Shown: in pieces, positions 22,716 to 63,099 of the stretch
How the letters are laid out: every line of letters starts with the position of its first letter
Position numbering within the stretch: the first letter of the stretch is position 1
Origin: Sphingomonas sp. CCH21-G11
Lineage (GTDB): Bacteria > Pseudomonadota > Alphaproteobacteria > Sphingomonadales > Sphingomonadaceae
Length of the DNA stretch: 64,000 nt
Assembly: GCF_001555965.1 (NCBI RefSeq)
Contig: NZ_LSHX01000056.1
Location: 1 to 64,000 of the forward strand
Direction: 5' to 3'
Position numbers and translations under genes: made by a program
The notes under the pieces: generated by a model
The model's input: only the letters and a program-made list of their open reading frames with translations
Told to the model about the DNA's origin: nothing
The model's database searches: none

Positions 22716-23203
22716 TCACGCGCTAGAACCTACGAGAAATTGAAACTGGATGGCGGGCACGGCGGAATCGTGGTCAAGGCACTCGGTACGCGTACCTCCG
22801 ATCACCTTCTCAGCGATGTGGAGCGACACGATGTTCTCGCGTCGACCACCGCCTCGAAATACAGCTTCGGAATCCCGTTCCTGCGAAGCCCGCGACATAT
22901 CTCGTTGATCGCCGCCTTCGACACGCTGCGCGCGCCCCCCCACCTCGCCGAGATTCCATCACCGCGTAGCCAAGCTGGAAAGTCGGCACGCCCTCGATCG
23001 GCTCATTCAGTGCCAAGAGCGCGACTGCGGTGACATCGCCGTCTTCAACCAGCGCATAGGAATATCTCGGTGCGCCGGCCGGCTGATCGACATGCACGAA
23101 GATGCCAGGGATGGAAGTCTGCTGGCTGAACGCGAATCTCCCGTTGTGCGATCGCCCTGCGGAATTCGAGCAGCGCGTCCATCGGATCGGTCATGGCCGG
23201 CAT
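22716..23203 (-). pseudogene. GNAT acetyltransferase pseudogene with three frameshifts
   Basis: Joining pieces of three frames gives a GNAT-like protein: MPAMTDPMDALLEFRRAIAQ, then after a shift near 23,121-23,128 YSYALVEDGDVTAVALLALN and FQLGYAVMESRRGGG, after a shift at the C7 run 22,935-22,941 SVSKAAINEICRGLRRNGIP-KLYFEAVVDA, and after a third near 22,833-22,845 ENIVSLHIAEKVIGG (the N-x-x-S...E-K-x-G acetyl-CoA end of the fold) to a TGA at 22,716. The gene is dead unless these are sequencing errors; the homopolymer shift could be one, three cannot easily be. Confidence 0.6.
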
Positions 23204-23246
23204 GCTATTTCCTTCCATTGCGATCCCGAGCAACAAGGCCAGCGCC

Positions 23247-26200
23247 TCATGAAGGCAGCTCGAACAAGATTCCGACCACCTCCATCAACGCTGTCAATTT
23301 CGGCAGCCCCTGTTCCCCACCGAAACTCAGCAACTCAGCTGGCGTCATTCCATCCGGGTTGAGGCTCTCGAGAATAACAAGCTGGCCGTGCGGTCGGAAC
23401 CGCTTGAGGTACCGGGCGCCAGCATCGTCCACAGCGATCACCAGGCGCCCCTCCAATTGCGCAATTGCCGCGCTCGTCATCGAGACCGGATGAGTGATGA
23501 TGTATTGGCCATCCAGCGCGACGGGTTCAGCACTGCGTCCTTCAACTTGAAACAGCTTGGCGTTCTGGAGCATCGCATGGATCGCCGCGAAATCGGCAAG
23601 CGGTAGGAACTCCACATTGTTTGACTTTGGCGGCGTCGGCAGTCGGTGTTTTGCAAAGAGGGTGCCGACTATCTTGCGCATGTCAATCTGCTCTTTTGGA
23701 GCGATCACGGGTTGGGCGAGCGATGTCGGATCGGTGGCTTGGCCCGTCAGCACGGCGATATGCGGGTGGACTTCGGTTTCGTTGTATCGACGTGCGAGCA
23801 GCTGGTCCTGAAACGTGGTGACGACGAGATTGCGTTCATGCACTTTTGCATAGTTACTCACGATGATCACGTCGCCGATATCAGCCACCGGATCGAGCGT
23901 CCCTGCGGCAAGCTGAAAGGCGGCGTGGTTGTAGAGCGTTACCTGCTGCACTTCCGACAGGTCCGCCATCGTGATCAGGCCGTCGCCCGCGCGCCCATCG
24001 GTCTTCGCTGCCGCAGCGATGCCGGTATGGAAAAACGGGACGGCTTTGAGGTCGGAGGGATCGGTTGCCGGGAACTCCACCACATTGTCCATCCAGGCGA
24101 ACAAGCGCGGCTCGCCCACATGGGCCTCGAATTCGGCAAAGATCTTGAAGCAGGTGTGAAGCCGTGATTCGACCTTTTCTTCCCAGAACTTTCTAACATC
24201 GATCGCCTGCGCGACACCGATCGTGCCGTCGAAATGATGATGCGCCTCATTGATATGCTCCATTGCCTTACCGCCACCGCCGCCCGCGATGTATTCGAGC
24301 AGCTTGTTGAAGGACGGATTGGTGAATGGGGGCACGCTCGCAGTGCGCCGCGCCTTCATCAGCGTGGCGAGCTCGTCTAGGGTCTTGTTGACGATGTTCG
24401 GATCCTCGGCGCGAAGCATGATCTTGAGCAGATCTTCCAGGTAGATGCGGACCTTCTGGACATAGGCGTGCCCCTTCTGGTCGTCGTTCGTGGCCAGTGC
24501 GTCGGCGAAGGCGCTGGCGAGAGAATCTCCGAAAATGATCGTCGCTACCTTTGAAGCGTTGCACAGGCGCACGACCAGGCCCTGCTGACCGGGCAGCTTC
24601 TCCGAGTTGACCAGGATCTGAAAAAATTGGCGCTCATGCGTGATCATGAGGATCTGCGCGCCCGCGATGTCGATCGGATCGGCTTTGCCCAGTCTGGCGA
24701 TCTCCTCTGCCCATTTGCGCTTGTTGCGCGGATCGAAGGTAACCTGAGGATCGTCTAGCAACATCAAAGGAAATGGATTGGCGCCAGCATCGACGATCGC
24801 CTGCTCGCGCACGGCGAGGACGAAGGCCCAAAGGATTGCCCGCAACCAGGAGCTGTTGGCAACCAGGGACGCATCGACGCGTACACCGGGATCGAAGCTG
24901 CCCGCGATGAGGACCGCCTTCTTCTCCAGGGCGGCATCCTCAAACGACAATCGTTCCTTGAAATGGATCCGGTCGAGGATTGCCTTCATGCGCTCGGAGA
25001 GCGCCGAAATCGATCCCGCGGTCTGTGCGGCGACGAGCAGACGCAGATCCTTCAGAGGTATCAGCGCCGTCGCTATAGATTCCCGGACGCGTTGTTGTTC
25101 GTGGATCGGAAGCCATAAATCCGCTTCCTTCGCGGCCGTTCCCAGGTCCTTGGCGAGTTGATCGAGTGGGGCAGCGCGCTCGAGGGCCGCCTCAAGCGCC
25201 TGGACCTTCCCCTCTATGGAGAAGGCCGGATATGTTCCGTCCTCTGCCGCGCTGCCCACCATCTCGCGCCAGGCGGACGCGAACTGGGGTCGATGCGCCT
25301 GCCACCACCCGGCCAAGGCCATCACACGCTCTACTTTGGCGATATAGCTCAGCAGCCCAAATGCCGCCGGTGGCGAGGCCGAATCCGGCACCGTCATGGT
25401 GTGCACGAAGACGGGAAGCTTCTGCGCTATGATGTCAACGGCATCTGACGCGAACGCTGCTACGCCGGTCAGGACAGTCGAGAACGGTGCCCCTTGGACG
25501 AACACCTGCTTGGCAGCCTCTGAAAAGGCTTCGCGCGGCTGCATCGCCCACAAGGTGTCAAAGTGGGCATCAACAGGCTGCGGCACAGAATCGCGGATCG
25601 ACTTCTCGAGCTCCGTACAAACATCGGCCAGCATCCGCTCTGCGACGGATGCTGCCTGCTTGAGGTTGGCAAGCTCATCGGCGAGCGCTGCGCGCTTCTC
25701 GCCGGTCAGCTTTCCCTCGCACAAAGGGCAATCGGCACTTCCGTGAGAATGGAGCGCCGGCTCGTAGAATCGGGATGCTAGCGCCTTCAGCCGCAGCTTC
25801 TGATCCTCGGCCTGTCGCTTGTCCCAAAGGATTGCTTCGGCAAGCCGGGCCCTTGCTTCGGCAAGCAAATTCGGCAACGCCTGAAATTGTGCGTCTCCTG
25901 GAGCATTCGCGAGCGCCTTCCAAGCAGAGAACACATCGACGCCTTTAGAACTGTCGCCCAGTATCGCCCGCGCCGAATTGACCGCAGCCTTGATCGTGCC
26001 ACGATCGTCCGCATTCGCCGTGTCAAGTGTCGATGCGATCTCCGAGGTCAGCACGGCGAGGTGTGCGGCGGCCTGATCCGAAGCCGTCTTCGCGGCGTCG
26101 CGGAGCTCCTGAGCGTAGCCCTTTTCCTCGCGCTTGCCCGCGACTTTCAGGTTGAAGTCGATCGTGACCGCTGTTTGGGCCGCGCGTTCAAAAGCGGCTT

Positions 26201-27119
26201 CGAGGCGCGCCGCAATGGTTTCACCCCCCTTGTCCAGCGCGTATTTGAGAAAACGCTTGGACCGGTGGGTGAAATTGGCCGCGCCATCGGCAATGGCGGC
26301 CAGCTGATCGAGCCCAGTCAGGAGTTTGACCGCATCGTAGATCGACTGGCTGCGCTCGCCAAAGCCGATCCGGGCGAGGCGAGCGGGCATGAGAAGGCCG
26401 ACCTCCAGCAACTGGGGAGCCATCAGGAGATCAGCTGAGATATCGACTTCGATCACAGGCTGGACGCCTGGTGCAGCCAGCAGTCTGCGGTATGCATGGG
26501 CGGTGTTGCCGGCCGGATCTTGGAAGGTCAGCCGCACCCAGGTCTCGGCGGTGCCCGCCAACGCGATAGCGCTGGCGGGATAGGACACGATAGAAGGCCA
26601 GTCTCCCATCGCGGAGCCAGCACCATTCTCGACGGGAGTTCGGATGCCGGTCTCGAGATGCAGGCCGTCTTGGTCTCGGCACCGATAGCCGGTCATCGCC
26701 CATATGATCGCGCTGGCTAGCGACGTCTTGCCCGATCCGTTCTGACCTTCGAGGCACCAGTTTGCCCCGTCGAAAGGTACGGAAAAGACGGGTCCCCCGA
26801 CCTGGTTCAATCCCCCGAAGCCGCTGGTTTCAAGTCTGGCCAGACGCCAGGGGCCGGCATTCGTTGGCGCCCCGCTTTTTTCCGTCTCGGTCGCGGGATC
26901 GAAGGTCTCAAGCTCCCATGCTGCAATCAGATCGTCGAAAAGGCTTTCGTGCGCGTCGGCCACTTTGGATTGCTCGCAGGTGAGCAGGAAGTGGAATAGG
27001 CGCCGCGCGCCGGCGGAGGCGAGGTGCACCGAGCCCGCCTTGTGGTCCCCGAACTTCGCCCAAGTAAGGGGCTGACCAGAAAGAAGCCGTTGTTTTGCTT
27101 CGTAGAATGATAGAGCCAT
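23247..27119 (-). CDS. SMC/Rad50-like ATPase with C-terminal tandem LexA/S24-like domains
   Basis: A 1,290-residue protein, start set at 27119 because GGAGGGG precedes that ATG (the 27146 frame begins at GTG without a site). A ~115-residue N-terminal domain is followed by Walker A GQNGSGKTS (~125), long helical arms, a Rad50-like zinc-hook motif DCPLCEGKL (Cys464/467), Walker B LMLLDDPQVTFD (~785) and the H-loop ITHER (~826). The last ~230 residues I read as two S24-like beta domains: ~1060-1156 (degenerate: AGTLDP, LARRY) and ~1187-1288, keeping a nucleophile-type Ser1196 (VEGRSAEP) and Lys1239 (YLKRF) as in LexA/UmuD. A DNA-end or structure sensor with a protease switch is an inference. It follows the GHKL gene in the same direction with a 268-base gap. 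Confidence 0.7.
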   Translation of the reverse strand: MALSFYEAKQRLLSGQPLTWAKFGDHKAGSVHLASAGARRLFHFLLTCEQSKVADAHESLFDDLIAAWELETFDPATETEKSGAPTNAGPWRLARLETSGFGGLNQVGGPVFSVPFDGANWCLEGQNGSGKTSLASAIIWAMTGYRCRDQDGLHLETGIRTPVENGAGSAMGDWPSIVSYPASAIALAGTAETWVRLTFQDPAGNTAHAYRRLLAAPGVQPVIEVDISADLLMAPQLLEVGLLMPARLARIGFGERSQSIYDAVKLLTGLDQLAAIADGAANFTHRSKRFLKYALDKGGETIAARLEAAFERAAQTAVTIDFNLKVAGKREEKGYAQELRDAAKTASDQAAAHLAVLTSEIASTLDTANADDRGTIKAAVNSARAILGDSSKGVDVFSAWKALANAPGDAQFQALPNLLAEARARLAEAILWDKRQAEDQKLRLKALASRFYEPALHSHGSADCPLCEGKLTGEKRAALADELANLKQAASVAERMLADVCTELEKSIRDSVPQPVDAHFDTLWAMQPREAFSEAAKQVFVQGAPFSTVLTGVAAFASDAVDIIAQKLPVFVHTMTVPDSASPPAAFGLLSYIAKVERVMALAGWWQAHRPQFASAWREMVGSAAEDGTYPAFSIEGKVQALEAALERAAPLDQLAKDLGTAAKEADLWLPIHEQQRVRESIATALIPLKDLRLLVAAQTAGSISALSERMKAILDRIHFKERLSFEDAALEKKAVLIAGSFDPGVRVDASLVANSSWLRAILWAFVLAVREQAIVDAGANPFPLMLLDDPQVTFDPRNKRKWAEEIARLGKADPIDIAGAQILMITHERQFFQILVNSEKLPGQQGLVVRLCNASKVATIIFGDSLASAFADALATNDDQKGHAYVQKVRIYLEDLLKIMLRAEDPNIVNKTLDELATLMKARRTASVPPFTNPSFNKLLEYIAGGGGGKAMEHINEAHHHFDGTIGVAQAIDVRKFWEEKVESRLHTCFKIFAEFEAHVGEPRLFAWMDNVVEFPATDPSDLKAVPFFHTGIAAAAKTDGRAGDGLITMADLSEVQQVTLYNHAAFQLAAGTLDPVADIGDVIIVSNYAKVHERNLVVTTFQDQLLARRYNETEVHPHIAVLTGQATDPTSLAQPVIAPKEQIDMRKIVGTLFAKHRLPTPPKSNNVEFLPLADFAAIHAMLQNAKLFQVEGRSAEPVALDGQYIITHPVSMTSAAIAQLEGRLVIAVDDAGARYLKRFRPHGQLVILESLNPDGMTPAELLSFGGEQGLPKLTALMEVVGILFELPS

Positions 27120-27387
27120 GTCCCCTCCATGGAGGAAGTATAGCACCGCAACCGATTATCGATCCAGAGCGATAACATCTTCAAATTGGATCGATTTCGT
27201 CAGTCAGTAAACTTTGTCGATGGCAGCTTCCATGATGATGCACAGACCATCTCAACGACCGAAATTGGTGCGCACACGTCAGCTTAGGATATGGTTCATT
27301 TCCGCTGGCTCCGCACATGAGTCCAAGATGATCTCCACATTCTCCTTCTGCTTGGATCAAATCCAGCCTTGTGGTCTCGCGACCTGC
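27120..27387 (-). promoter_or_regulatory. Intergenic region with dyads upstream of the SMC/S24 gene
   Basis: No gene is seen. Two overlapping inverted repeats lie 35-75 bases upstream of the start: ATCGATCC (27158-27165) with GGATCGAT (27188-27195), and TTATCG (27156-27161) with CGATAA (27170-27175). They suggest a separate promoter or operator for this gene in addition to read-through from the GHKL gene. Confidence 0.4.
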
Positions 27388-28836
27388 TCAAGCTCGGCTG
27401 AAGAGGCTGGTGAAGAGCGACTTCGGTTCCCGCGCTGGCTTTAGCGCTGCGGCGGCCGTCTGACCGATCACATCTGTAAGCGCGTTCTCGAAATCTCGCG
27501 TGACATCGTCGAACCCGGTCCGCGCGTGGACTATCTCGTGAAGAAGTGTGCCCGCAAAACTCGAAACCGACGAGAGTTGGTCGCGGCGGATCACGATCGA
27601 CTTGGTGGAACCATCCCATAGCCCTAAGGCATCGCTACCGGTTGCAAGTTCCACCCGCATCGTATTGCTCACCCGAATGGACTGCACATGATCGGGCAGT
27701 CCGCCCACAAGAGCGGCGATGGCTTCCACCATGTCGAACACCGAGCGCTCTGCGGTCGAAAGGGAGCCCGGCTCCAAGAAATCGAAGACGAAGCTATCGT
27801 TCCACTCTGTCTGATATTGGCCGAGGTCACGGATCGGCTCACCGCTGAGATCCGTCATGCCGACAACGTCTCTCTGGATGCTATCGGGTATCGTGATGAT
27901 CTTGATCCCGTCGTTCCGTGCGTGGTCTACCGAGGACGAATTCGTCATCAATTGGTCCGCAGTCACAAACAGATATTTGCCGCTGCCGCTAAGGATGCGA
28001 ACAGCGTGAACCGCTACCTCTTTCCAGCGAACTTCGTCGCTGCCAAGGCCAGATTGCAACGCCTGCAGCTGGTCAGCGAGCTCCGAACCGATTTCCGCTT
28101 TCGTTGCGTTAAGAAGCATTTGCTTCACGCGATCAGAATAGGCGGTGCGGCCGACGTTGGTACGCTCACGATTGAGTGCCTTGCGCATCGGCTCGGTGAG
28201 GGCCGTGATGTTGTAGGAGAACGCGAAATTCTCCTCCTCGGCGACCAAAAGGCCAGCCACATAGATCCGCGCGGACACATCCGGCTTTCGTCGGAGGATC
28301 TCGCCGATGCGCGTCGACTCGAGCACTTCCTCCTCTGAGAATCGAAGGAAGAAACTCTTTGCCTTCTCCATCTGCTCATCGCTCAGACCACGCAGAATGA
28401 TAGTCGTGCCGACCATCGACGGATCAGGTGATGGCTGAACCGCAGCATGGAGCGTCACAACATCATCGAAGTCGCGCTTGGCTATCTGAGCAAGGGTGAT
28501 CTCGCCGTGTGCGGATCGAATATTCACGGCGACACCATTGCGATGGAGGGTTGCCATCGCATCTTTCAGGCCAACCCCAAACTTGCCAATGACCTTCCCG
28601 GCATTCCGGAGCTTCTCGGCGTTTTCGTTCTGCGTGAAGTGCTCGTATCGGAGCCCGCGTCCGAAATCGCGGATAGTCCAGTCGCCATCTTCGGTCTTGA
28701 CGACCTCGATGTCGGGGGTGTCGGTCAATTCTTGTTCGTCGATCGCATTGGCAATGAGTTCACGGACCGCATGCGCGCTCTCCCAAGCTTCGAGGATCTT
28801 CTCGATGTTTAGATCGAACAGTCGCGCTGTGGTCAT
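27388..28836 (-). CDS. GHKL-type ATPase with C-terminal HExxH metallopeptidase motif
   Basis: A 482-residue protein. The N-terminal ~200 residues are a GHKL (Hsp90/MutL/histidine-kinase) ATP-binding fold: N-box AVRELIANAIDEQE, G1 box IRDFGRGL, G2 box GKFGVGLKDAM. The middle ~200 residues are unassigned. Near the end lies GTLLHEIVHARTG with HEIVH at 433-437 and a possible third zinc ligand Glu450 in TRDFENAL. Start 28836 (AGGGGC upstream); 28857 with GAGGA upstream is an equal alternative. A nucleotide-switched protease is inferred. It begins about 60 bases after sbcC in the same direction. Confidence 0.75.
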   Translation of the reverse strand: MTTARLFDLNIEKILEAWESAHAVRELIANAIDEQELTDTPDIEVVKTEDGDWTIRDFGRGLRYEHFTQNENAEKLRNAGKVIGKFGVGLKDAMATLHRNGVAVNIRSAHGEITLAQIAKRDFDDVVTLHAAVQPSPDPSMVGTTIILRGLSDEQMEKAKSFFLRFSEEEVLESTRIGEILRRKPDVSARIYVAGLLVAEEENFAFSYNITALTEPMRKALNRERTNVGRTAYSDRVKQMLLNATKAEIGSELADQLQALQSGLGSDEVRWKEVAVHAVRILSGSGKYLFVTADQLMTNSSSVDHARNDGIKIITIPDSIQRDVVGMTDLSGEPIRDLGQYQTEWNDSFVFDFLEPGSLSTAERSVFDMVEAIAALVGGLPDHVQSIRVSNTMRVELATGSDALGLWDGSTKSIVIRRDQLSSVSSFAGTLLHEIVHARTGFDDVTRDFENALTDVIGQTAAAALKPAREPKSLFTSLFSRA

Positions 28837-28896
28837 ACTTGCCCCTGCTTGTTCCATGTATTGTCCTCGAAGTGAGCAAGGTCTCACGTTGCGGCT

Positions 28897-31800
28897 TCAT
28901 GCCGACCTTACTTCGATCTGGCTTCCATTGGCACCCTTGTGCACTGTAAATCCATTGGGAACAGCCTGTTGCACCAACGGCACATGCGAGATGAGGCCCA
29001 CGGCGCGCCGTTCGCCCACGATATTCTGAAGCACCTGCAGAACCTGATCGAGCGTTCCAGCGTCGTTATCGGTGTCTAGGCTGCCGAAGCCTTCATCGAT
29101 GAAAATGGTGTCGAGCCTGATGGCACCGTTTGTCATCTCGACGATGTCGGACAGCCCGAGTGCCAGGGACAAGGCCGCGATGAAAGTTTCGCCGCCGGAA
29201 AGCGTGATAATTTCGCGGGCACGGCCCGTCTCGATATCATGAACTCGGACGTCCAGTCCTCGCTTTGAGCGACCCCCGATGCTCTCGGTGTCGCGCTCAA
29301 ACCGATATCGACCGATGGTCATCGGATCGAGGCGCAGGTTCGCTGCTTCGAGAACCTGATCGAACATCGCACCGATAGCGAATGTTTCGAGACTGGTCCG
29401 CATCTCGTTCTGACCGTCGAAGGCTTCTGCAATTCCTCGCAGCGCGCCCGAGGAATGCTCAAGGGCTTGAAGGTTCCCAAGCTGATCTTTCAGACTGATC
29501 TGCAGATCGACAAGCGATTGGTGCTTCTGCTGAGCAGCAGCGCTATGCTGAACCGCCTCGTCTGCCCCCGCCTGTGCTTGAACGCAGCTCAGACGATAGG
29601 GCTCAAGGCTTTGCCGCTGCGCGTTGCCGACCGCGTTTCTTGCCATCGTTTCTCGTGCGCGGGCTTCAACAAGGGCAGTGTCAAAGCCCGCGATAGCCTT
29701 CTCCAGTGCGGGAATTTCGGCAATATCGGGGATCGCCGCGCGATATTCTGCCTCGGCCATCCCAAGCTCGGTAAGGCGGGCTTCAAATGCTGTTTGCTTT
29801 GCGGCGAGGTCGATCTCGGTGTCGCTGACCGCAGTCGCAGCGCTCTGCAGTGCGGCTGCTGCTTTGATAGCAATGGCATCTAGCTCGCGCTGCTTCGCAT
29901 CGGCATCAGCAAGGGCCTGCTTCCGGCCGCTCAAGTTTCCGGTGGCGGCATCGATTGCGGCCTGCAGACCGTCTTGCTGGCGCAGATTTTCGGGGACTGA
30001 TGCAATCTTCTCGTCGTAAGCTTGTCGGGCCAATGCCTCTGCAGTCGTGGCACCCCCGAACGCGTCGCGAGCCTTTTGGAGGGTCTCTGTCGCTGCCAGC
30101 TTGCGCTTGCGTGCGTCATCCAGTTCCTGGGTGAGAAGGCCGATGTCGACGTGTGCGCCCAAAGCATCGATCTGATCAAGAATAAGCTGCAACTCGCCAT
30201 CGATGTCGCTCGCGCTGCGCTTCGGCTCCGCAAGTCCGTCCAGGACTGCACGCTTTGCGTCGAGTGTGGCACCGGCCGAACTGGCGGCCGCTTGGGCCTC
30301 ACGATCGGCCTTGGCCGCGGCTTGGGCTCCGCCCTGAGCATCGCGCCACGCCTTTTCGAGTGCACCGGCATCGCCTGAACCATGCGCCGGTTCGGGGTGG
30401 TCGCTGGCGCCGCAAACCGGGCAGGGGTGCCCGTTCTGCAATCGCTGGGCAAGGACGCTGGCCTGGGCCGAAAGAAAGGCGCGCTCGTGTGTCTCGGCGA
30501 CAGCGACTGCTTCGATATGGCGAGCCTGCGCGTTGCGGGCAATGGTCGATGCCTTGTCGCAGGCCTCCTGCGACAATTCCACATCTTGCGTCGCCTTTGC
30601 GGAGGCCTGCGCTGCATCGAGCTCGCTCTTCAAACCATCGCGAGTTCCGTTCAGCTTCTGTCGCTCAAGACCATTCGCTTGGGCTGCCGCGAGCGCCGTC
30701 TCCTTCTCTTCGCAGAGATCAGCAGCCTTTGCCTCAGCGTCGGCGGCTTGGGAGTGAGCCTGTTTTGCTCGTTCCAGCCCCGCCTCGGCGGCTTCAAGGT
30801 CAGCCAGACGCTCGGCGGCATCCACCAGAACTTGCTTGTGGCGGTTCAGCTGGTCGATCTTGCGCGCAAAGTCTTCGATCTCATGTTCGCGGGAGCGAAG
30901 ATCGAGCAGCATCGCGCTCGCTGCCGAAAGAGAAGCGCTTGCTTCACTGGCGGCCATTTCAGCGTTGGAGTGTGCTTCAATCGCTGCCCTGTAGCGCCTC
31001 TGGGCATCGGCAACGGTGGCGTCGAGATCCGATATGCGCCGCGCCAGCTCCGCCCGGGATTTGCGGGTTCGCATCGCCTCAAAAGTCAGGCCCTGCCCTT
31101 CGAGCTGCTTGAGTGCAGCGGATGCGGCCTCGACCTCGACAAACCGTTTTTCCTGCTCTTCGGCGGCCGCGTATGCCTTGTTTGCCACTGTGAGCACGGT
31201 CGCCGTCTCGGAAACCGCCAATTGGGCAAACTCATATCGCTCGAGTGCCAAGGCAATGCCGTCATTGAGCTCGTCCGAGCTGTTAAAGCCCTCGGTCTGA
31301 AGGCGGCTCCCGTGAAGGCGATAGCCATCTTCGATCTCGCGCCTGACGTTTGCGGCATCGGCTTTGAGCTTTTCGGTGAGCCGGCGGTAGAGAGAGACGT
31401 CGAACAGCTCCCGCAGAATTTCGAGGCGGTCCTTGCTGTTCGACACCAGGAAACGCTCGAACCTGCCTTGCGGCAACAGGACAATCTGGCGGAACTGCTG
31501 TGCGCCATAGCCGAGAAGACCTTCGACATGGCTGAGGACGGCGCCGACCTTGCGTTCTGCCAGCGGGGTCCCGCAGCAATCCGGACCGACATCATCGATG
31601 GCGATATCAGACACGTCAAAGAGCCAGGCAGCGTGCGACTGCGCGGTAAATCCCTCGCCCTTTGTCTTGGGACGCATCTGGTCAGGTATACGCCTGACAT
31701 AATAGCGCTTTGTCCCCAATTCGAATTGCAGGCTGACTTCAGTGAGGAGGTCGTCAGGCGCGAAATCAGACCTCATGGTCCCTATGCCCTGCTCTTCCTT

Positions 31801-31971
31801 TGCGCCCTCGCCAAACAGGGCAAAGGCAATCGCGCTGAAGATCGACGACTTGCCCGAGCCCGTAGGGCCGTAGATCCCGAAGAGGCCGGCATCCGTTGCC
31901 TCGCGAAAATCGACGGTCTCAGTCCCCCCATAAGGGCCGAAAGCGCTCAGGGTCAGCTTGATCGGCCTCAT
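28897..31971 (-). CDS. sbcC: SbcC-like exonuclease subunit (Rad50 homologue)
   Basis: A 1,024-residue SMC-type ATPase close in size to E. coli SbcC. Walker A YGPTGSGKSS at ~34-43, long coiled-coil arms, the zinc hook CPVCGASDH near 517, the ABC signature LSGGETFIAALSLALGLSD near 925 and Walker B FIDEGFGSLD near 953. With SbcD it forms the Mre11-Rad50 type nuclease that opens hairpins and blocked DNA ends. It overlaps sbcD by four bases. Cargo copies of SbcCD next to defence genes suggest a role in attack on phage DNA rather than housekeeping. Confidence 0.93.
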   Translation of the reverse strand: MRPIKLTLSAFGPYGGTETVDFREATDAGLFGIYGPTGSGKSSIFSAIAFALFGEGAKEEQGIGTMRSDFAPDDLLTEVSLQFELGTKRYYVRRIPDQMRPKTKGEGFTAQSHAAWLFDVSDIAIDDVGPDCCGTPLAERKVGAVLSHVEGLLGYGAQQFRQIVLLPQGRFERFLVSNSKDRLEILRELFDVSLYRRLTEKLKADAANVRREIEDGYRLHGSRLQTEGFNSSDELNDGIALALERYEFAQLAVSETATVLTVANKAYAAAEEQEKRFVEVEAASAALKQLEGQGLTFEAMRTRKSRAELARRISDLDATVADAQRRYRAAIEAHSNAEMAASEASASLSAASAMLLDLRSREHEIEDFARKIDQLNRHKQVLVDAAERLADLEAAEAGLERAKQAHSQAADAEAKAADLCEEKETALAAAQANGLERQKLNGTRDGLKSELDAAQASAKATQDVELSQEACDKASTIARNAQARHIEAVAVAETHERAFLSAQASVLAQRLQNGHPCPVCGASDHPEPAHGSGDAGALEKAWRDAQGGAQAAAKADREAQAAASSAGATLDAKRAVLDGLAEPKRSASDIDGELQLILDQIDALGAHVDIGLLTQELDDARKRKLAATETLQKARDAFGGATTAEALARQAYDEKIASVPENLRQQDGLQAAIDAATGNLSGRKQALADADAKQRELDAIAIKAAAALQSAATAVSDTEIDLAAKQTAFEARLTELGMAEAEYRAAIPDIAEIPALEKAIAGFDTALVEARARETMARNAVGNAQRQSLEPYRLSCVQAQAGADEAVQHSAAAQQKHQSLVDLQISLKDQLGNLQALEHSSGALRGIAEAFDGQNEMRTSLETFAIGAMFDQVLEAANLRLDPMTIGRYRFERDTESIGGRSKRGLDVRVHDIETGRAREIITLSGGETFIAALSLALGLSDIVEMTNGAIRLDTIFIDEGFGSLDTDNDAGTLDQVLQVLQNIVGERRAVGLISHVPLVQQAVPNGFTVHKGANGSQIEVRSA

Positions 31972-33113
31972 TGGTCATCCTCCGTTGTCTCGAACGCTCG
32001 AAGTGCGGAGGCGACAATCTGTCCTTCTGCCTCGGTCAGCAGCTCGCCGCGGATGAAATTGAGGAACGTGGAAGAGAGGGCATGTGGGTCATCGATCGCC
32101 GCGCGCTGTTCCTCGAGGCGCTGCACGACGGGCCGCTCGCTGCGTTCGTAAGCGAGCTGGACCGCATTGGGGTACACGGCCCGGATCCTCTTCATGGGAT
32201 CAATCTGCGGCGTTTCGTCGGTTAGAACGACGCGAACGATATCGTTGGAGACTTCGCTGGCAGCAAGGAGCTCAAGCAGTTTGCCCCGAATGGTTCTGAC
32301 CTGACGCAGCGGCCGTAGCGGCACTTCGGTCACCGTGGCAGAGCCGTCGGCTGCAAGATCGATCAGGCTGACTGACTTCTGCTGCCCCTCTTCATCGAAG
32401 CCGAATGCCATAGGCGCGCCGGAATAACGGATGTGATCCTGTCCGACCGGTTGCGGGCGGTGTAGGTGCCCTAGCGCCACATAGTGCGCGCCCTCGAAGG
32501 CCGCCGCCGACACGGTCTCAATCCCGCCGACCATGCGCGTCAAGGGGCGCTCGCTTTCGCTGGTGGCCGCGCCGTCGACAAAGGCGTGTGCGACGACAAC
32601 CCAACGCATTCCCTCGGCCACGTGCTTGCGAGCGCTGGCAAGCTGGGCCCGGATGACGTCCGCAGGGCAGGCGATAGCGTTGTCTTCGAAACACAGACGC
32701 GCGGCATATTCGAAGGCAAAGGGCAGGGCGGAAATGGCCACCGGCCCATCGGCATCGGAAATCACGAGGGGCCGCTCATCTTCATCCAGTGGTCCGCGCA
32801 CAATCGCTGCGCCGCCATCTGCAAGAACGCCCATTGCACCGATCTGCGCAGCGGAATCGTGGTTGCCCGCGATCATAACGATCGCTGCATCGGATGCTGC
32901 CCGCACCGTTGTGAGGAACTGCGAGAGGCGGGTGATCGCGCTTTGGGGCGGGTTTGCCCGATCAAAAATGTCGCCGGCGATGATCACGACATCGGGACGC
33001 TCATCATCGATCATTGCGAGGATCTGGACGAGGATGTGCTCGTGGTCATCATCGAGAGACATGCCATGGAACTGTCGGCCCAGATGCCAGTCGCTGGTGT
33101 GCAGAATGCGCAT
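31968..33113 (-). CDS. sbcD: SbcD-like nuclease subunit (Mre11 homologue)
   Basis: A 381-residue metallophosphoesterase with all catalytic motifs: TSDWHLG (residues 7-13), AGDIFDRANPP (~46-56), IAGNHDSA (~80-87), VVAHAF and ALGHLHRPQ. The C-terminal capping region follows. It gives the Mn-dependent exo/endonuclease activity of SbcCD. GAGGACAGATTA precedes the ATG. It is the first gene of the minus-strand island operon, divergent from the WYL regulator. Confidence 0.93.
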   Translation of the reverse strand: MRILHTSDWHLGRQFHGMSLDDDHEHILVQILAMIDDERPDVVIIAGDIFDRANPPQSAITRLSQFLTTVRAASDAAIVMIAGNHDSAAQIGAMGVLADGGAAIVRGPLDEDERPLVISDADGPVAISALPFAFEYAARLCFEDNAIACPADVIRAQLASARKHVAEGMRWVVVAHAFVDGAATSESERPLTRMVGGIETVSAAAFEGAHYVALGHLHRPQPVGQDHIRYSGAPMAFGFDEEGQQKSVSLIDLAADGSATVTEVPLRPLRQVRTIRGKLLELLAASEVSNDIVRVVLTDETPQIDPMKRIRAVYPNAVQLAYERSERPVVQRLEEQRAAIDDPHALSSTFLNFIRGELLTEAEGQIVASALRAFETTEDDQ

Positions 33114-33137
33114 TAATCTGTCCTCGAATCCAAGTGC

Positions 33138-33152
33138 ATATAAATTTTATAT
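33138..33152. promoter_or_regulatory. AT-rich dyad between sbcD and the WYL gene
   Basis: ATATAAA-T-TTTATAT, a perfect 7-base inverted repeat in an AT-rich patch of an otherwise GC-rich region, lies in the 73-base divergent intergenic space. It is a good place for the shared promoter and the operator of the WYL protein. Confidence 0.5.
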
Positions 33153-33186
33153 AGACGTGTGATGGTGCGTCAAGTAGGGTTCGGAC

Positions 33187-33960
33187 ATGGACGATCCCGC
33201 ACTCAAGCCAGCAATGCTTGCCCGCCTGGTCTATCTCGACCGGTGCCTGACATGGCGAGGACAGGTGAATCGCAAGGACCTCATCGAGCGTTTCGGGATC
33301 TCGTCTCCGCAGGCAGCAATCGATCTGAGGGAATATCTCGAGCGGGTTGCAGAGCCGAAGCCTCGCTATGACACGGTCCGAAAGTGTTATGTTGCCGACC
33401 CCCACCATCGCGGCCTGCCTTTTGTGGAGGATGCAGGCTCACCGGATGAGTTTGTCGGCCATCCCACATTGAGCGGGCTGTCTGTTCTGCCTTCTCCGGC
33501 CCGGCAATGCCCGCCATTTGTAATGCGGCGTCTGTGGCAGGCGATCGAGCAGCGGCAGAAGATCGAAATCGGCTATGTGTCGATGTCTAGTGGACTGCGC
33601 CAGAACCAATGGATCGCGCCGGCGCATTTTGCCTCCGACGGCGAGCGCCTGCACGTTCGGGCCTGGAGTTTCCACCACCGCGAATGGCGCGATTATGTTC
33701 CGGTCCGGGTCCATCCTGACAGCACTTTCGACGTGACGCCGGTCGGCGAAGACCTTCCGCGCGATGCTGACTGGGACGATCTCATCGAAATCAGGCTTCG
33801 GCCGCTGAGCAGCCTTACAGAAGAGCAGCAGGCGGCTGTCCGGCTAGAATTTGGGTTCACGCAGGAGGTCCTGAGCTTCGAGGTCCGCAGGTCGCTCGAA
33901 TTCTATGTCGAACGACGCTGGGGGCTCAAACAAACGGGGTCGCGACTGGAACGCTATTAG
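33187..33960 (+). CDS. WYL-domain transcriptional regulator (BrxR/CapW-like)
   Basis: A 257-residue protein: an N-terminal winged helix (LARLVYLDRCLTWRGQVNRK, DLIERFGISSPQAAIDLREY), a WYL domain (~110-185; IEIGYVSMSSGLRQNQWIAP, ERLHVRAWSFHHREWRDYVP) and a C-terminal extension. This layout matches the WYL repressors that control BREX, CBASS and other defence loci. It is divergent from sbcD, with an AT-rich dyad between them, and heads the plus-strand genes. Confidence 0.82.
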   Translation: MDDPALKPAMLARLVYLDRCLTWRGQVNRKDLIERFGISSPQAAIDLREYLERVAEPKPRYDTVRKCYVADPHHRGLPFVEDAGSPDEFVGHPTLSGLSVLPSPARQCPPFVMRRLWQAIEQRQKIEIGYVSMSSGLRQNQWIAPAHFASDGERLHVRAWSFHHREWRDYVPVRVHPDSTFDVTPVGEDLPRDADWDDLIEIRLRPLSSLTEEQQAAVRLEFGFTQEVLSFEVRRSLEFYVERRWGLKQTGSRLERY

Positions 33961-34001
33961 CTTCGCCGCGCGAGGTATGTCTGCTGCCTCAAGGAAAGGA
34001 C

Positions 34002-35474
34002 ATGACCATGGTTGGAAACACGACAGTCGATCCGCTGGCATGGGCATCGGCGGTTACAAGGCCGGAGATTGACGCGGTCAGGAACCCGCGAACTGGCCAT
34101 GTGCTAAATGTCCGCCGGTTGATCCGGGCATTCCGGTATGAACGCGCAATCCTGCTGCGCCAGAGACTCAAGGCGCTCGTCAAACGTGACGAAGCACGCT
34201 TGGTCTGCGCGACCTGCGGTGTTCCGGTCTATCTGGCTTGCAGTACGACCAAGCGGTTCTTCTTCCGGCATCGCCATGAAGATGGCTCGTGCCCCGCTGT
34301 CACTCGAACGGAGCTGAGCGAAGCCGATATCAGGGCAATGAAGTACCGCGGCGCTCAGGAGAGCGGGGGGCACAAGCAGGTCAAGGCACTTCTTCTGCGG
34401 AGCCTCACGGCCGACCCACGGTTCAAGGACGTTGCGTCAGAAAGGACTTGGAGAGCGGGCGAAGGTCTGACCGGACTGCGTCGGCCTGACGTTTCGGCGC
34501 GGACGGACACCGACAGACTAGCCTTTGAAGTGCAGCTGAGCACCACGTTCATGGACGTCGTGCTGAGCCGGAAGGAGTTCTATCGGGCCGAAGGGGCGGC
34601 GCTCGTCTGGGTCTTGCCGTACTTCCATCCGAGCTATCGTCGCATGACGGATGACGACATCCTTTTCGGCAACAACTCCAACGTTTTCGTGGTCGATGAA
34701 AGAAGTGCTGTGGCGTCCGAAGCGGCAGGAAGCTTCATCATGACATGCTGGTACCGCAAGCCGATCATTCAGGGCGATGAGATCGTCGATGAGTGGGTCG
34801 AGCGCCTGGTCTGCTGGGATGAGGTCACGGTCGATGTGGACCGCCAGACCATTATCGCGTTCGACTATGGGCAGGAGGCGGCAAGACTCCGCGAAGAACT
34901 CAGAGCGGCCCGCATGGAAAGGATCGCCGCTGCCGAGGCGGCTGAAAGGCAAGCCCGGGAGGACCGGGAGAATGAGCTGCGCGAGCAAGTGCTTTATTTC
35001 GTTCTCGATGCCTCGCGTGATGACGTCTACCTGCCACGGCACAAGGCATGGCTGCTTCTTAACGATCGCCTTCGTTCCATAGGCTTCGGCCTCGAAGGGG
35101 AATACCCTGATCTGCAGACAGCCACGCGCATCGTCCATCTGATCGAGAGTGCGAGGGCAGGGAAGCCGGTGGGGTTCCGATACAAGAGCTTCGCCGAGCT
35201 AGGCCATCATCTCATTCATCAGCACCCGGAATTGCTGCTCGCCTTTGGCCATATGCTTCGCAGGTTTGGGACGAGGGACGCCTTGTATAGCGACGATAGG
35301 ACGGGAAAGCTGAGGGCTAAGCTTGACGCCATACGGTCTGACCTCACCCAAGAACCGAAATACAGGATGGCAAAGGATGAGGAGCGCTTGTGCGCGTTTC
35401 TTTCCATGGGAGCATCTCGAAAGGCACAACCCGACAACGACAATCGCGATCAGCAAGGCCGCGAGGCGGCGTAA
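34002..35474 (+). CDS. CoiA-like / DUF6035-type nuclease protein
   Basis: A 490-residue protein. Residues 68-97 carry a CoiA-like zinc or structural motif (CATC at 69-72, RHRH near 90, Cys97). Residues ~120-210 look like a PD-(D/E)xK nuclease: RRPDVSA (Asp163) and LAFEVQLSTT (Glu176, Gln178), the form typical of competence protein CoiA. A charged coiled coil (about 290-330) and an unassigned C-terminal domain follow. AGGAAAGG precedes the ATG. It comes 42 bases after the WYL gene, so a shared transcript is likely. Nucleolytic action on foreign DNA is inferred. Confidence 0.65.
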   Translation: MTMVGNTTVDPLAWASAVTRPEIDAVRNPRTGHVLNVRRLIRAFRYERAILLRQRLKALVKRDEARLVCATCGVPVYLACSTTKRFFFRHRHEDGSCPAVTRTELSEADIRAMKYRGAQESGGHKQVKALLLRSLTADPRFKDVASERTWRAGEGLTGLRRPDVSARTDTDRLAFEVQLSTTFMDVVLSRKEFYRAEGAALVWVLPYFHPSYRRMTDDDILFGNNSNVFVVDERSAVASEAAGSFIMTCWYRKPIIQGDEIVDEWVERLVCWDEVTVDVDRQTIIAFDYGQEAARLREELRAARMERIAAAEAAERQAREDRENELREQVLYFVLDASRDDVYLPRHKAWLLLNDRLRSIGFGLEGEYPDLQTATRIVHLIESARAGKPVGFRYKSFAELGHHLIHQHPELLLAFGHMLRRFGTRDALYSDDRTGKLRAKLDAIRSDLTQEPKYRMAKDEERLCAFLSMGASRKAQPDNDNRDQQGREAA

Positions 35475-35504
35475 GCTGACCATTGCGAACACAGGACACG
35501 ACCA

Positions 35505-35888
35505 ATGGGAATTCTGGCGCTCGCCTCGGCTGCAACTTTTGCCTGCACACCCGTTGCCGTCTGGGATGGGGACGGCCCTATCTGGTGCAAAGAGGGGCCA
35601 AAGATCCGCATCGCCGGTATTGCAGCTCGCGAAATGGACGAGACTTGCTCTCGGGGACACCCATGCCCAGCGGCCTCCGCAGTTGCGGCAAGGGATGCAT
35701 TGGTCCGGCTACTCGGCGGGCTGAAGGGCCAGCGCGACACCGGTCATATCATCGTGCGCGCACCGGCAATGCGGTGTTCGGCAGATGGGCAGAGCTACGG
35801 CCGCGTCGTTGCCAGTTGCAGGCTTTCAGATGGTCGAGATCTCGCCAAAGCCATGCTCGCGACAAGAACCGTTAAGCCTTGGAGATGA
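35505..35888 (+). CDS. SNase-like (thermonuclease-family) protein
   Basis: A 127-residue protein with a hydrophobic N-terminus (LALASAATFA, probably a signal peptide) and an SNc-like fold: VWDGDGPIWC, KIRIAGIAAREMDETC, SYGRVVASCRLSDGRDLAKAML. The Arg and Glu of the active-site strand are kept, but the second Asp of DTPE is Ala (IAAREMDE), so catalysis is uncertain. Four cysteines may form disulphides, fitting an exported protein. It lies 30 bases after the CoiA-like gene. Confidence 0.7.
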   Translation: MGILALASAATFACTPVAVWDGDGPIWCKEGPKIRIAGIAAREMDETCSRGHPCPAASAVAARDALVRLLGGLKGQRDTGHIIVRAPAMRCSADGQSYGRVVASCRLSDGRDLAKAMLATRTVKPWR

Positions 35889-35941
35889 CGCAAGCGTGAT
35901 GGGATGGAGCGCTGGAGAAGCGAAGCCGAGCTAGGTTGAGT

Positions 35942-36808
35942 CTAGTCTTCGCCCTTGGGTGCAGCGGCGGGGTCGTGGCGATCGAGGCGGTCTTCTCGCT
36001 TGATGTTATCGACGAATGCCTGAAGCACCGCGTTTCTGTCCCGGAACACCGTCGCGGACCGGAAATGGTCGCGCACTTTCGCCTCGATCTCGGCGACCGT
36101 CTGATTTTCGGGGCTCCCAGCGGCCCACTTGCGTCCGGGATGGACCGTATCGAAGGGTGACTTGTTGTTGGCTCGCGTGGTGGCGTCATCACCGTGCTTT
36201 CCGAGCCCGTAGAGAATCCCTGTCTCGTTGTTCCAGATCGGCCGGAACATCCGGATCAGGTGACTTTCGGCCGCCGCCTGATAGCCTGTCTGAACAGCGA
36301 GCGCCCTGCATTCGAAGTCTTCAAGCTCGATGCCAGAGACCTTCTCGATGTTTCGGCGATGCTCGTTGAGGCGGTCTGCAAGCTTCGTCCCCTGATCGAT
36401 CGCTGTCTTGGGATTCCCCTTCGGATCCGCCTTACCGACATAAATCGGCGTCTCGGTTCCGCTGATCGGCGCGTAAAGCGGATTGGGACCTGTGTAATAG
36501 ATCGCGTAGACGCCGGACCCGTAAAAGCGGGTCAGGCTACCGAGCGGCTTGCGGTCCTGTGCCACCATCGCAAGCGCCACGAAATTTCCGATGAGACTGG
36601 GCTCCGCCGGGTCAAAGAAAGCGTCGGGCAACTCGTTGGGATCGATCTTGCGCGTGAGTCGCTCAAGACGATCCCGCATCGCGTCCACGCTGCTGACCAG
36701 CTTCTTGCGCGCCGGGGTTGTCAGTTCCGCGCTCTCGGTGGCGGCAAGCAGCGCCTCGATCTCGGCGAGGATCTTGCTCGCCTTCGTTAGTGAAGGATCC
36801 CGCGACAT
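35942..36808 (-). CDS. Eco29kI-family GIY-YIG restriction endonuclease
   Basis: A 288-residue enzyme with the GIY-YIG core: GVYAIYYTG (~97), PIYVGKADPKG (~120), the catalytic Arg in KLADRLNEHRRNIE, Glu in AAESHLIRMFRPIWN and the Asn of that motif. N-terminal helices (about 1-60) are typical of the Eco29kI group, whose characterised members cut CCGCGG. The gene starts two bases after its methylase stops. Confidence 0.88.
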   Translation of the reverse strand: MSRDPSLTKASKILAEIEALLAATESAELTTPARKKLVSSVDAMRDRLERLTRKIDPNELPDAFFDPAEPSLIGNFVALAMVAQDRKPLGSLTRFYGSGVYAIYYTGPNPLYAPISGTETPIYVGKADPKGNPKTAIDQGTKLADRLNEHRRNIEKVSGIELEDFECRALAVQTGYQAAAESHLIRMFRPIWNNETGILYGLGKHGDDATTRANNKSPFDTVHPGRKWAAGSPENQTVAEIEAKVRDHFRSATVFRDRNAVLQAFVDNIKREDRLDRHDPAAAPKGED

Positions 36809-36810
36809 GC

Positions 36811-37992
36811 CTATTGCTTGGTGCTTTCCGCGCTCTTCAGGGCAAGGGCGACACTGCGCGCCACGCGTTCGGCGAGGGTAACCGGCACCGCGTTGCCAAG
36901 CTGCCGCATCGCCTCGGACCAGACGCCCTCAATCCGATAAGTGTCGGGGAAGGTCTGAAGTCGAGCACTTTCCCTGACCGTGAAATAACGAACTGATCCA
37001 TCGGGCCGAGCGAGCATGTTTTCTCCCCCTGGGACGCCGTGAACGCCGGCCTTCAATGCCTTCGCGGCGTCATCCAATGGGCTGCCGGTGTGGCCGGGAT
37101 AGCTGCGGGCGCCAGGTTGAAACCTGTGACCGGAAATGCCGGAGATTTCGGCGGGGTTGTGCTCGGGGTCGGGTAAGGTCGCCAGGGCATCGCGTACGGT
37201 CAGCCAAGGCAACTCCGCAGGTCTTTCGATCAGCCGATCCGCTCGGGCCCTCATGCGCTCTGCGTTCGACCACCGCTCCGCCTTGGGCACGCGATGTCGT
37301 TCGAAGTAATCCCCGTGCGCCTGCTCCCACAAAAGGGCTTCCTGCGAGTGCGAAGCTTCGGGGAAAGACCATTCGATTCCCTGATCCTTCCGGAAGCCCA
37401 CGAAGAACACCCGATGCCGTTTCTGGGGCACGCCATAGTCGGCCGCGTTTAATACCTCCGCAACGAGCCGGTATTCCAATCCGCGTTCCGCCCGCGAACT
37501 CGTGTGATGCCGTTCGAGCCTGCGCAGATGCGTCGACCAGTCCTCGTCGTCCATTGCGACGAGCTCGGGGTACTGCATCTGCAGCTTGATGTATTCGTAA
37601 TAGGAACTGAAGCTGGCCCGGGTCAGGCCTCGGACATTCTCGAAAATGAAGGCTCGCGGTTTGGCCTCCCGCACCGCGCGAACCGCCTCCGGAAACATGT
37701 CGCGCCGGTCCGCTTGTGCGCGGTGTCGGCCACCAACGGAGAAAGGCTGGCAGGGGGGGCCGCCGGATACCAGCTCGATCTTGCCCTCGTGCGCCGTGAA
37801 GTCGGCGTCGCGAACGTCACGCTCGATTTCGAGCGGCCAACGTTTCGCGTCCGATTGACTAGCATGCCGATTGGCAAGAAGGGTACGCTGGCAATTCGGC
37901 TCCCATTCGACAATGCGCTCAGGCTTGAAACCCGCCCTACTTATCCCGATGCCGAGACCGCCAGCCCCTGCGAACAGTTCGATCGCCTTCAT
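36811..37992 (-). CDS. DNA (cytosine-5) methyltransferase of the Eco29kI-type R-M pair
   Basis: A 393-residue C5-methylase with motif I ELFAGAGGLGIGISRAGF, motif IV GGPPCQPFSVGGRHR (catalytic Cys near 77), motif VI ENVRGLTR, motif VIII QKRHRVFFVGFR, and motif X QLGNAVPVTLAERVARSVA. It protects the sites cut by the adjacent enzyme, predicted CCGCGG by analogy. Its ATG overlaps the end of a decayed vsr frame by four bases. Confidence 0.92.
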   Translation of the reverse strand: MKAIELFAGAGGLGIGISRAGFKPERIVEWEPNCQRTLLANRHASQSDAKRWPLEIERDVRDADFTAHEGKIELVSGGPPCQPFSVGGRHRAQADRRDMFPEAVRAVREAKPRAFIFENVRGLTRASFSSYYEYIKLQMQYPELVAMDDEDWSTHLRRLERHHTSSRAERGLEYRLVAEVLNAADYGVPQKRHRVFFVGFRKDQGIEWSFPEASHSQEALLWEQAHGDYFERHRVPKAERWSNAERMRARADRLIERPAELPWLTVRDALATLPDPEHNPAEISGISGHRFQPGARSYPGHTGSPLDDAAKALKAGVHGVPGGENMLARPDGSVRYFTVRESARLQTFPDTYRIEGVWSEAMRQLGNAVPVTLAERVARSVALALKSAESTKQ

Positions 37993-54400: not shown

Positions 54401-57400
54401 TCAGGCAGCCTTTCGATCAAGAATTCGGGCCAAGGGGTGCCGTTCAAACAGCCGCTCGAGCACAGCCGACCCTGTCACCACGTCGTCAGGCACGAACAGA
54501 CGCAGTTTCCAGCTGATGATCTCGGAAAACAGCCCCATGGCTTTGAGCCGGTCGACCGCCGAGGATCCGAACCCGGTGAGTTCGATCCGGTTCACCTGCA
54601 TCAGCCGCGACCGGCGCAGTTGCAGCCCATCGGCAAGGTCGAGCATGGCTTGGCCTTCACGAAGCAATGCTAGTGCCTGTGGTGGCGAAAGCAAGGGTGC
54701 TTCGGGCTTGGCCGTCGTACCCGCTGCCCATGCTGCGGACACCCTGCGCCCGACAATGCGGGTGCCATCATCGGCCTGGAGCCGGTAGACACGGGTCGAT
54801 TCCTCGGGAAGCTGTTTCCAGATGGGGAGCAACAGGCCGGTGACGATGTGCAGTTCGCTTGTCGTGAACTCATCGACTTGTGCCAGCTCGTCCTGCCAGA
54901 CTGCCCCGAATGTCCGCTCGTCCACCTCCTCCCAGTGGGTCTCGGGAAGGTGGGTCAGGGCGAAGTTCAGCCGCTCCATCGGCCGGATCAGCCGGATGCG
55001 GCGCTCAACCTCGCCATCGTCGAGCATGAGGCTGCGAGCCGGCAGCTGGACTGCAGCGCGCCGCGAGCGGGCATTGACCAACAGCCGCGCGGCGGGTTCA
55101 CGCCGCAGTTCGAGCGCCCGCTCGAGCGAGACCGGCTGGTTGCGCTCCTTCATTGAAATCGTCAGCAACCGGGTCTCTGCGCCCGTGGCCGGATGGACGT
55201 ACATTGGCTCACTGGCTGTGACGGTGAAGCTGTCGGCGGTCAGGGTTTCCAGCCCGAGATCGTAACTGCCCGCCGTGATTGCGCTTTCGACCTTGGCGCT
55301 GAGGATCTGCTCGAACACCGCGAACAGCACGTTCTGCATGTCGATGGTGAGTGCCAGCAGCCGGTTCAGAAAGGTCGTGATCGGCGGCAACTCGTCCTTG
55401 AGGCACCCGCTGCCGTCGGTCAGCGACAGGCCGGTCATGCTTTCGAAGGTCGCGAGCGAGCATCGCTCGACCTTGCCGGCATAGATCAACACATAGAGCT
55501 GGCGCAGCGCATCGCGGGCATAGGGGCTTTCGAGATTGTCTTCGGGGCGGAACAGCCCCTGACCACCGGTCTGCCGCTGTCCGCGCGTGATCGCACCCAG
55601 AGTGTCGAGCCGCCGCGCGATTGTTGAGAGGAAGCGTTTCTCGGCCTGGACATTGGTGGCCACCGGCCGGAACAGCGGCGGCTGCGCCTGATTGGTGCGG
55701 TTGGTGCGGCCCAGGCCCTGGATCGCGGCATCGGCCTTCCAGCCTGCTTCCAGCAGATAGTGATGGCGGAGCCGCTGGTTCCTCGCGCCCAGATCGGCAT
55801 GGTAGCTGCGTCCAGTGCCCCCGGCATCGGAGAATACGAGGATTTGCTTGCGATCCTCCATGAATGCCTGCGTTTCGGCGAGGTTGGCATTGGCTGGCCG
55901 GTTCTCGACCGCGAGCCGGTCGCCATTTGCATCGACCTTGCGGACGATCCTGCGCGATCGGCCAGTCACCTCGGCCACCATATCTGTCCCGAACCGCTGC
56001 ACGATCTGGTCGAGTGCGCCTTGTACCGGTTCCATCGATGCCAATTGCTCGATCAGCCGGTTACGTCGTTCGAGCGCCTCGCGGCACTGCACGACATTGC
56101 CATCCTCGTCATAGGCTGGCCTTGACGCGAGATTGCCGTCGCCGTCGGTGAAGCTCTCATGAAGCTGGGTCGGGAAGCTGTGGAGGAGGTAATCCAGAAC
56201 ATATTCGCGTGGCGTGATATCGACCTGAATGTCGTTCCACTCGCCCGGATCGATATCGGCAAGGCGGCGCGACAGCAGCGCTTCCCCCGTCGAGACGATC
56301 TGCACCACAGCGGCGTGGCCATCGGCGAGGCCCTGCTCGATCGCGGCGATCAGCGTTGGCGTCTTCATCGCCGTAATGAGATGATTGAAGAAGCGCTGCT
56401 TGGCGGATTCAAACGCCGAGCGGGCCGCAGACTTGGCCTGTACGTTGAGCGTGCCCTCGCTGCTCGTGACGTTGGCGGCCTCCAGCGCTGCGTCCAAGTT
56501 GTTGTGGATGACCTGAAACGCCCCGGCATAGGCATCGTAGATGCGAACCTGGTCAGCGGTGAGCTGGTGCTCGAGCAGCTCATATTCGACGCCTTCATAG
56601 GACAGCGAACGGGCGGCATAGAGACCGAGGGCTTTCAGGTCGCGGGCGAGCACCTCCATCGCTGCGACCCCGCCCGCTTCGATGGCCGCGACAAAATCGG
56701 TGCGTTTGTCGAAGGGAAAGTCAGCGCCGCCCCACAGGCCGAGCCGCTGAGCATAGGCAAGATTCTCGACCGTGGTCGCCCCGGTTGCAGAGACATAGAC
56801 AATCCGGGCATTGGGCAGCGCATGCTGCAGGCGCAGTCCGGCCCGTCCCTGCTGCGAAGGGGCGCAATCGCCCCTTTCGGATTTGCCGCCACCGGCATTC
56901 TGCATGGCATGGCTCTCGTCGAAGACAATGACCCCGTCGAAGTCGGTCCCCAGCCAATCGACAATCTGCTGGACCCGGGAAACCCGGTTTTCGCGCGCGT
57001 CGGAGCGTAGCGTGGCATAGGTCGTAAAAAGGATGCCTTGCTCGAGCCGGATCGGCGTACCCTGACGGAAGCGGGCGAGCGGCGTGACCAGCAAGGGCTC
57101 TTGCCCCAGAGCCTTCCAGTCGCGCTGCGCATCTTCGAGCAGCTTGTCGGATTTCGAAATCCAGACTGCGCGCGTTCTGCCCTTCAGCCAGTTGTCGAGC
57201 ACAATCCCGGCAACCTGCCGCCCTTTGCCAGCGCCGGTGCCATCGCCCAGGAACCAGCCTTTGCGGAACCGGACTGCCGTGTCGCAGTCATCGGGCGCAG
57301 CTTCGATCCTGTCCCAGGTCGCATCGACGGACCAGCTGCCGGCGAGATGGTCGGCATGGGCTTCGCCCGCATATACTACCGATTCCAGCTGGGCATCGGA

Positions 57401-63023: not shown

Positions 63024-63099
<76 letters not shown>

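Follow-up and report, generated by a model that had tools for sequence, protein, structure and literature searches.

Four adjacent genes on the minus strand of an integrative and conjugative element (ICE) in Sphingomonas sp. CCH21-G11, encoding SbcD, SbcC, a GHKL ATPase with a C-terminal HExxH motif and an SMC-like ATPase ending in S24 peptidase domains (SMC-S24), raise the question of whether they work together as one system. They lie within positions 1-64,000 of contig NZ_LSHX01000056.1, a stretch of 64,000 nucleotides called here the window, to which all locus coordinates refer. A preliminary description of this DNA placed the four in a cargo slot of the ICE, beside a WYL regulator, a CoiA-like gene and a restriction-modification (R-M) pair, and joined them in a single defence system. 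The four co-directional genes and their domains were confirmed by profile matches and residue conservation, and the cargo slot was borne out by the window annotation. The stretch is very probably a stack of separate cassettes in the ICE, namely SMC-S24, GHKL-HExxH, CoiA-WYL-sbcD-sbcC and an Eco29kI R-M pair. The novel piece is SMC-S24, undescribed as judged from the open-access literature and the PADLOC models of 2023, while sbcCD and the R-M pair are ordinary examples of familiar kinds. SMC-S24 is most likely a self-contained sensor-protease and, leaving aside whether it is gated by DNA and whether it acts against phages or plasmids, this explanation is given a probability of about 0.65.

The SMC-S24 gene occupies 23247..27119 (minus strand), its open reading frame (ORF) having been called as 23247-27146 before homologues set the later start at 27119, which gives a protein of 1290 aa and with which the earlier numbering of Ser1196 is right. 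Pfam matches to SMC_N, AAA_23, Rad50_zn_hook and Peptidase_S24 all fall below cut-off (Peptidase_S24 scoring 21.6 bits against 23.3), and these calls, like the below-cut-off call in the GHKL protein, were upheld because the motif residues are conserved. K131, C464, C467, D789-Q792, S1196 and K1239 were invariant in 23/23 aligned homologues. In a wider alignment of 26 proteins (28 at the outset, L142 and L145 not being included, and L002, L018, L020, L150, L152, L153 and L157 being left out as broken, truncated or nearly duplicate) Walker A, the CxxC hook and Walker B with DDPQ were invariant in all 26, as befits a Rad50/SMC-like ATPase, and so was the Ser1196-Lys1239 dyad of an S24 peptidase. 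The C-terminus carries tandem LexA-type domains, a degenerate D1 (residues ~1029-1160) and D2 (~1176-1290) with Ser1196/Lys1239, and the structure predicted for residues 868-1290 matches the LexA fold over its S24 part. Ala1037, in a candidate cleavage loop, was invariant in 26/26, the next residue being Ala in 15 and Gly in none. A sequence search of the PDB with SMC-S24 returned nothing at E<=1. D2 is predicted to be an active S24 protease, which is probable, and of the two proteases put forward in the preliminary description it is the S24 candidate that gains from an invariant dyad and a LexA-like predicted fold.

The action of such a protein may be envisaged as follows. The Rad50-like head and zinc-hook coils would engage DNA ends or hairpin-like structures, by analogy with the Rad50 family (PMC10586767). 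ATP-driven closure could then free the latent LexA/CI-type Ser-Lys protease of D2, a step for which the dyad and the fold are supported, and the freed protease might cut the loop of the degenerate twin D1, or another protein, leading to a defence or stress outcome. Mre11/Rad50-like pairs, which often adjoin relatives of SMC-S24, may supply or trim the ends that are sensed, as their proximity suggests. Gating by DNA is advanced tentatively, at somewhat less than even odds. The fullest version is speculative and rather unlikely to hold as a whole: a one-protein immune checkpoint in which a Rad50-like sensor that recognizes DNA ends or hairpins unlocks a LexA-type protease on ATP closure, the dead twin presents a substrate-like loop, and an interchangeable Mre11/Rad50 pair serves as partner in many islands. 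Were the sensor-protease reading true, a Rad50-like sensor and a LexA-type protease in one chain would let a DNA structure, once sensed, lead directly to regulated proteolysis; the SOS response makes this link through RecA filaments. The live and dead LexA twins allow a clean test by single residue changes.

Several known systems share parts with SMC-S24. The ATPase head and zinc hook are those of SbcCD/Mre11-Rad50, of which the window sbcD and sbcC form an ordinary pair, but SMC-S24 lacks a dedicated nuclease subunit and bears LexA-type domains, and the window sbcCD differs in that it is mobile and linked to a WYL regulator and a CoiA-like gene. With LexA, UmuD and phage CI it shares a Ser-Lys dyad 43 residues apart, the LexA fold and a stretch like a cleavage region with the invariant Ala1037, differing in its tandem copies of which the first is degenerate, in its fusion to a Rad50-like ATPase and in not keeping the P1' Gly; a DNA-binding repressor domain was not found in SMC-S24. 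A scan of nine window proteins with the PADLOC models of 2023 returned no match for the GHKL protein and only partial matches for SMC-S24, headed by a 55-residue match to mad3 and followed by LmuB fragments. MADS (the mad1-mad8 set) was not found, there being beyond that mad3 match only weak ATPase-type mad8 matches and no other mad protein among the nine. Lamassu resembles SMC-S24 in coupling a Rad50-like sensor ATPase to an effector, in keeping with the partial LmuB matches, but SMC-S24 is a single chain with an effector of protease rather than nuclease type, and neither LmuA, the effector that accompanies LmuB, nor LmuC was found among the nine. Likewise, Wadjet (JetABCD) places an SMC-like ATPase in mobile defence loci, but no JetABCD match was found among the window proteins scanned. 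Searches of the open-access literature brought up no paper joining S24 with SMC or Rad50 in defence.

The role of SMC-S24 was considered from its distribution and neighbours. The superfamily is present in plasmids and ICEs, with 34 loci outside the window (L014 excluded as a duplicate of L002), and defence genes occur at some of them, PDC-S37/Hhe-like in L148, a Shedu-family gene in L151 and, by annotation, Shango-like neighbours of L155. A role against phages or plasmids is slightly favoured. Viral contigs held no SMC-S24, and phage records, queried with the Croceicoccus SMC-S24 only, yielded none. The strongest alternative takes SMC-S24 to serve mobile elements as a regulator of the DNA-damage or SOS type, or as a repair factor, rather than as an immune protein. 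LexA, UmuD and phage repressors make up most of the S24 proteins whose function is known, and several SMC-S24 loci lie among ordinary metabolic genes, both of which speak for this alternative. Its presence is however patchy (among 381 Sphingomonadales genomes the close family was found in 0 and distant relatives in 5), and some loci have a recombinase or integrase gene nearby and others defence genes, which also counts against a regulator or repair factor, making this alternative improbable, if the best of those considered. The same 381 genomes gave close WYL in 5 and GHKL in 0 at E<=1e-20. Genes for a serine recombinase or tyrosine integrase were seen near lone SMC-S24 genes in L001 (12831-14453), L008 (7514-9133, 14190-15440) and L017 (8135-9409). 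Such neighbours fit the transfer of SMC-S24 as single-gene cargo.

An SMC ATPase that goes with a DNA-end nuclease was part of the preliminary description, and this held loosely. When ten query proteins were searched against the 34 loci (~10 kb around), an Mre11-like plus Rad50-like pair was found at 10/34, mostly of other types than the window sbcCD. YhaO/YhaN-like pairs occur at L002, L009, L011, L018, L019 and L148, SbcDC-WYL pairs at L004 and L136, SbcD with a 1261-aa SbcC at L149 and a broken pair at L157; L150, with sbcD only, is counted in 11/34 and not in 10/34, and a match at L155, the query matching itself, was uncounted. Eight of the ten pairs are adjacent to SMC-S24 or one small ORF away, in three arrangements, with those of L148 and L136 ~6.8 kb apart. 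At 45 control loci totalling 855 kb, 40 of them around other WYL genes and 5 around GHKL genes, the same queries found 0 pairs, giving Fisher P values against 0/45 of 3.2e-5 for 11/34, 5.9e-5 for 10/32 (minus L150 and L153) and 3.5e-4 for 8/30 (minus also L009, which has its YhaO/YhaN in common with L002, and L157, as broken). In 14 genomes carrying SMC-S24 (~69 Mb), TIGR00619 gave 19 matches, 4 over cut-off, and by coordinates a match fell inside 4/14 SMC-S24 loci against 0.08 expected (P ~1.5e-6). In the two Phyllobacterium loci, L002 and L009, YhaO/YhaN 91-94% alike stand beside SMC-S24 genes with a likeness of only 51%, a pattern that an exchange of one partner would produce.

That pattern, together with the three kinds of pair and their closeness to SMC-S24, is what commends a two-part system in which the variable pair is an obligate effector, encoded in cis or provided in trans by the host, and some SbcD-like match does occur in 12/14 SMC-S24 genomes. 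The TIGR00619 cut-off was however passed in only 4/14, SbcD-like genes are common anyway (13/14 control genomes), and 24/34 loci have no complete pair within ~10 kb (23/34 not even a remnant), so that a Mre11/Rad50-like partner is optional at best and a two-part system unlikely. The loci without a pair also weigh against the account given here of SMC-S24 and its partners, as do the following points. Several of the ten queries derive from the tested loci, and the controls are WYL and GHKL loci rather than matched defence islands; mobile islands gather Mre11/Rad50-like genes anyway. In the alignment the candidate loop lacks the Gly found after the cleaved Ala in LexA, the predicted structure is limited to residues 868-1290 and protease activity is a prediction. 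Croceicoccus (L004) and G571 (L136) hold distant SMC-S24 relatives near sbcCD-WYL, L004 also having GHKL, and a loose association of the four-gene set is possible at these two loci.

Comparison with plasmids shows the stretch coming apart into blocks. A near-identity search of window positions 23000-36000 against 72,556 plasmids, with matching records then aligned over the whole window, matched three plasmid records, each having one block in common. That of a Sphingomonas parapaucimobilis plasmid runs over 22720-27273 at 91% and comprises SMC-S24, ~150 bp upstream (27120..27273, minus strand, the block end shared with this plasmid) and a small downstream ORF; its 34-kb stretch is without GHKL or sbcCD, and GHKL was not found on the whole plasmid. 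The small ORF is a frameshifted remnant in the window (22719..23194, minus strand, no Pfam match) that is intact (159-170 aa) downstream of SMC-S24 in L001 and L006. In Sphingopyxis and Novosphingobium plasmids the common block is CoiA-WYL-sbcD-sbcC (28909-35707 at 84-87%), ending at the sbcC stop, and no SMC-S24 or GHKL was found in the stretches examined. Gluconobacter aligned over 23247-27128 at 84% and 22743-23218 at 81%, and Croceicoccus over the GHKL gene alone as a separate block (27455-28846 at 75%). From these separate alignments, GHKL has the look of a single gene inserted between two cassettes. The stretch also illustrates that genes lying side by side in one direction on a mobile element can belong to separate cassettes, as the limits of the blocks expose.

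Co-occurrence counts point the same way. Near the 34 loci, matches to window proteins numbered GHKL 1, WYL 2, SbcC 2 and SbcD 4, and at 15 loci from the genome collection (<=10 kb per side, some contigs shorter) there was none to GHKL, WYL, CoiA, SbcC or SbcD. The full GHKL-HExxH gene was in 0/14 whole genomes carrying SMC-S24 (one having a 43-position match, E 9.7e-4), and plasmid records held SMC-S24 in 22 cases and GHKL in 10, with both only in Croceicoccus. The test set beforehand, that all four genes should normally be neighbours, thus failed: as a rule GHKL and SMC-S24 lie away from one another as well as from window-type sbcCD. For this reason, and since its parts move as separate blocks and GHKL adjoins unrelated defence genes elsewhere, the four-gene system with ATP-gated proteolysis was rejected as highly improbable, despite the shared direction of its genes and a Croceicoccus plasmid (L004) on which a distant (24%) SMC-S24 relative lies within ~13 kb of sequence together with GHKL, CoiA, WYL, sbcD and sbcC, differently ordered and oriented.

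In the window, sbcC (28897..31971) and the adjoining sbcD (31968..33113), both on the minus strand, are a Rad50-like and a Mre11-like gene, as in SbcCD. SbcD matched TIGR00619 at 161 bits (cut-off 77.65) and SbcD_C over cut-off, and SbcC matched AAA_23 and SbcC_Walker_B over cut-off, with NF041751 spanning 1-1005 below its own. The WYL regulator (33187..33960, plus strand) is divergent from sbcD and is followed by the CoiA-like/DUF6035 gene (34002..35474, plus strand). Outside the window a close-form WYL regulator adjoins sbcD at 16/16 loci, of which only the ten genome loci found via WYL (two with an sbcD fragment only) test the link freely, since six plasmid loci were found via sbcC; those weaker WYL matches that were examined had no sbcD within their 3-4 kb stretches. 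In sphingomonads a CoiA-like gene stands beside WYL at 8/9 loci outside the window, once weakly, L141 being without it. WYL and, in sphingomonads, CoiA-like genes are the steady neighbours of window-type sbcCD; the preliminary description had left both outside its system. CoiA-like/DUF6035-WYL-sbcD-sbcC was observed as a divergently oriented module that is conserved in the mobile DNA of sphingomonads (window 28897-35474; L004, L023, L024, L027 and L136-L140), its CoiA-like gene occurring in two forms. In a dense defence island of a Phaeobacter plasmid (L026, 3657-18532), WYL-sbcCD has a SIR2-HerA pair on one side and on the other the Shango genes, which PADLOC names SngA/SngB.

The GHKL gene (27388..28836, minus strand; called as 27388-28887 before homologues set the start at ~28836) is a single-gene block whose product ends in an HEIVH motif. 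Its HATPase_c_3 match falls below the Pfam cut-off, but E28, N32, D59, G61, G86, F88, G89, H435, E436 and H439 (counted from a start at 28842) were invariant in 34/34 aligned homologues, and predicted folds match Hsp90/MORC2/GyrB, which together mark a GHKL ATPase. The HExxH part, the other protease of the preliminary description, is a candidate zincin by its motif and belongs to a separate, much larger family (4829/7998 scored candidates at E<=1e-3 vs 421/7995 for SMC-S24). Its neighbours on three plasmids are DprA (L028), a Piwi/Argonaute gene (L029) and the genes of a type I R-M cluster in which it is embedded (L030), making GHKL-HExxH a promiscuous candidate defence gene. Among viral contigs two GHKL loci were found. 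A precedent for a GHKL-gated effector is VcSduA, a Shedu protein with a GHKL domain and a PD-(D/E)xK nuclease as effector (PMC12137116); both place a GHKL ATPase ahead of a candidate effector domain, the window gene having the HExxH motif instead. The GHKL profile recovered 3/3 known carrier plasmids. In 385 Alphaproteobacteria it matched 50 genomes at E<=1e-3, none of which was counted as a carrier since the listed matches cover <=128/481 positions, in longer frames; we read these as GyrB/ParE/Hsp90-like.

Promoter-like and terminator-like sites were not above chance (4 found vs 2.6 expected; 2 vs 8.8), including the lone promoter-like match upstream of SMC-S24 at 27184-27155. The next cassette holds the Eco29kI-type restriction enzyme (35942-36808) and its partner C5 methylase (36811-37992), both on the minus strand. 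Further ICE neighbours are TraG, a VirB4-like gene and copper genes, with a tRNA-Lys at 63024-63099, and a Strawberry-notch-type helicase of 1447 aa is encoded within the ICE at 54401-58744 on the minus strand.
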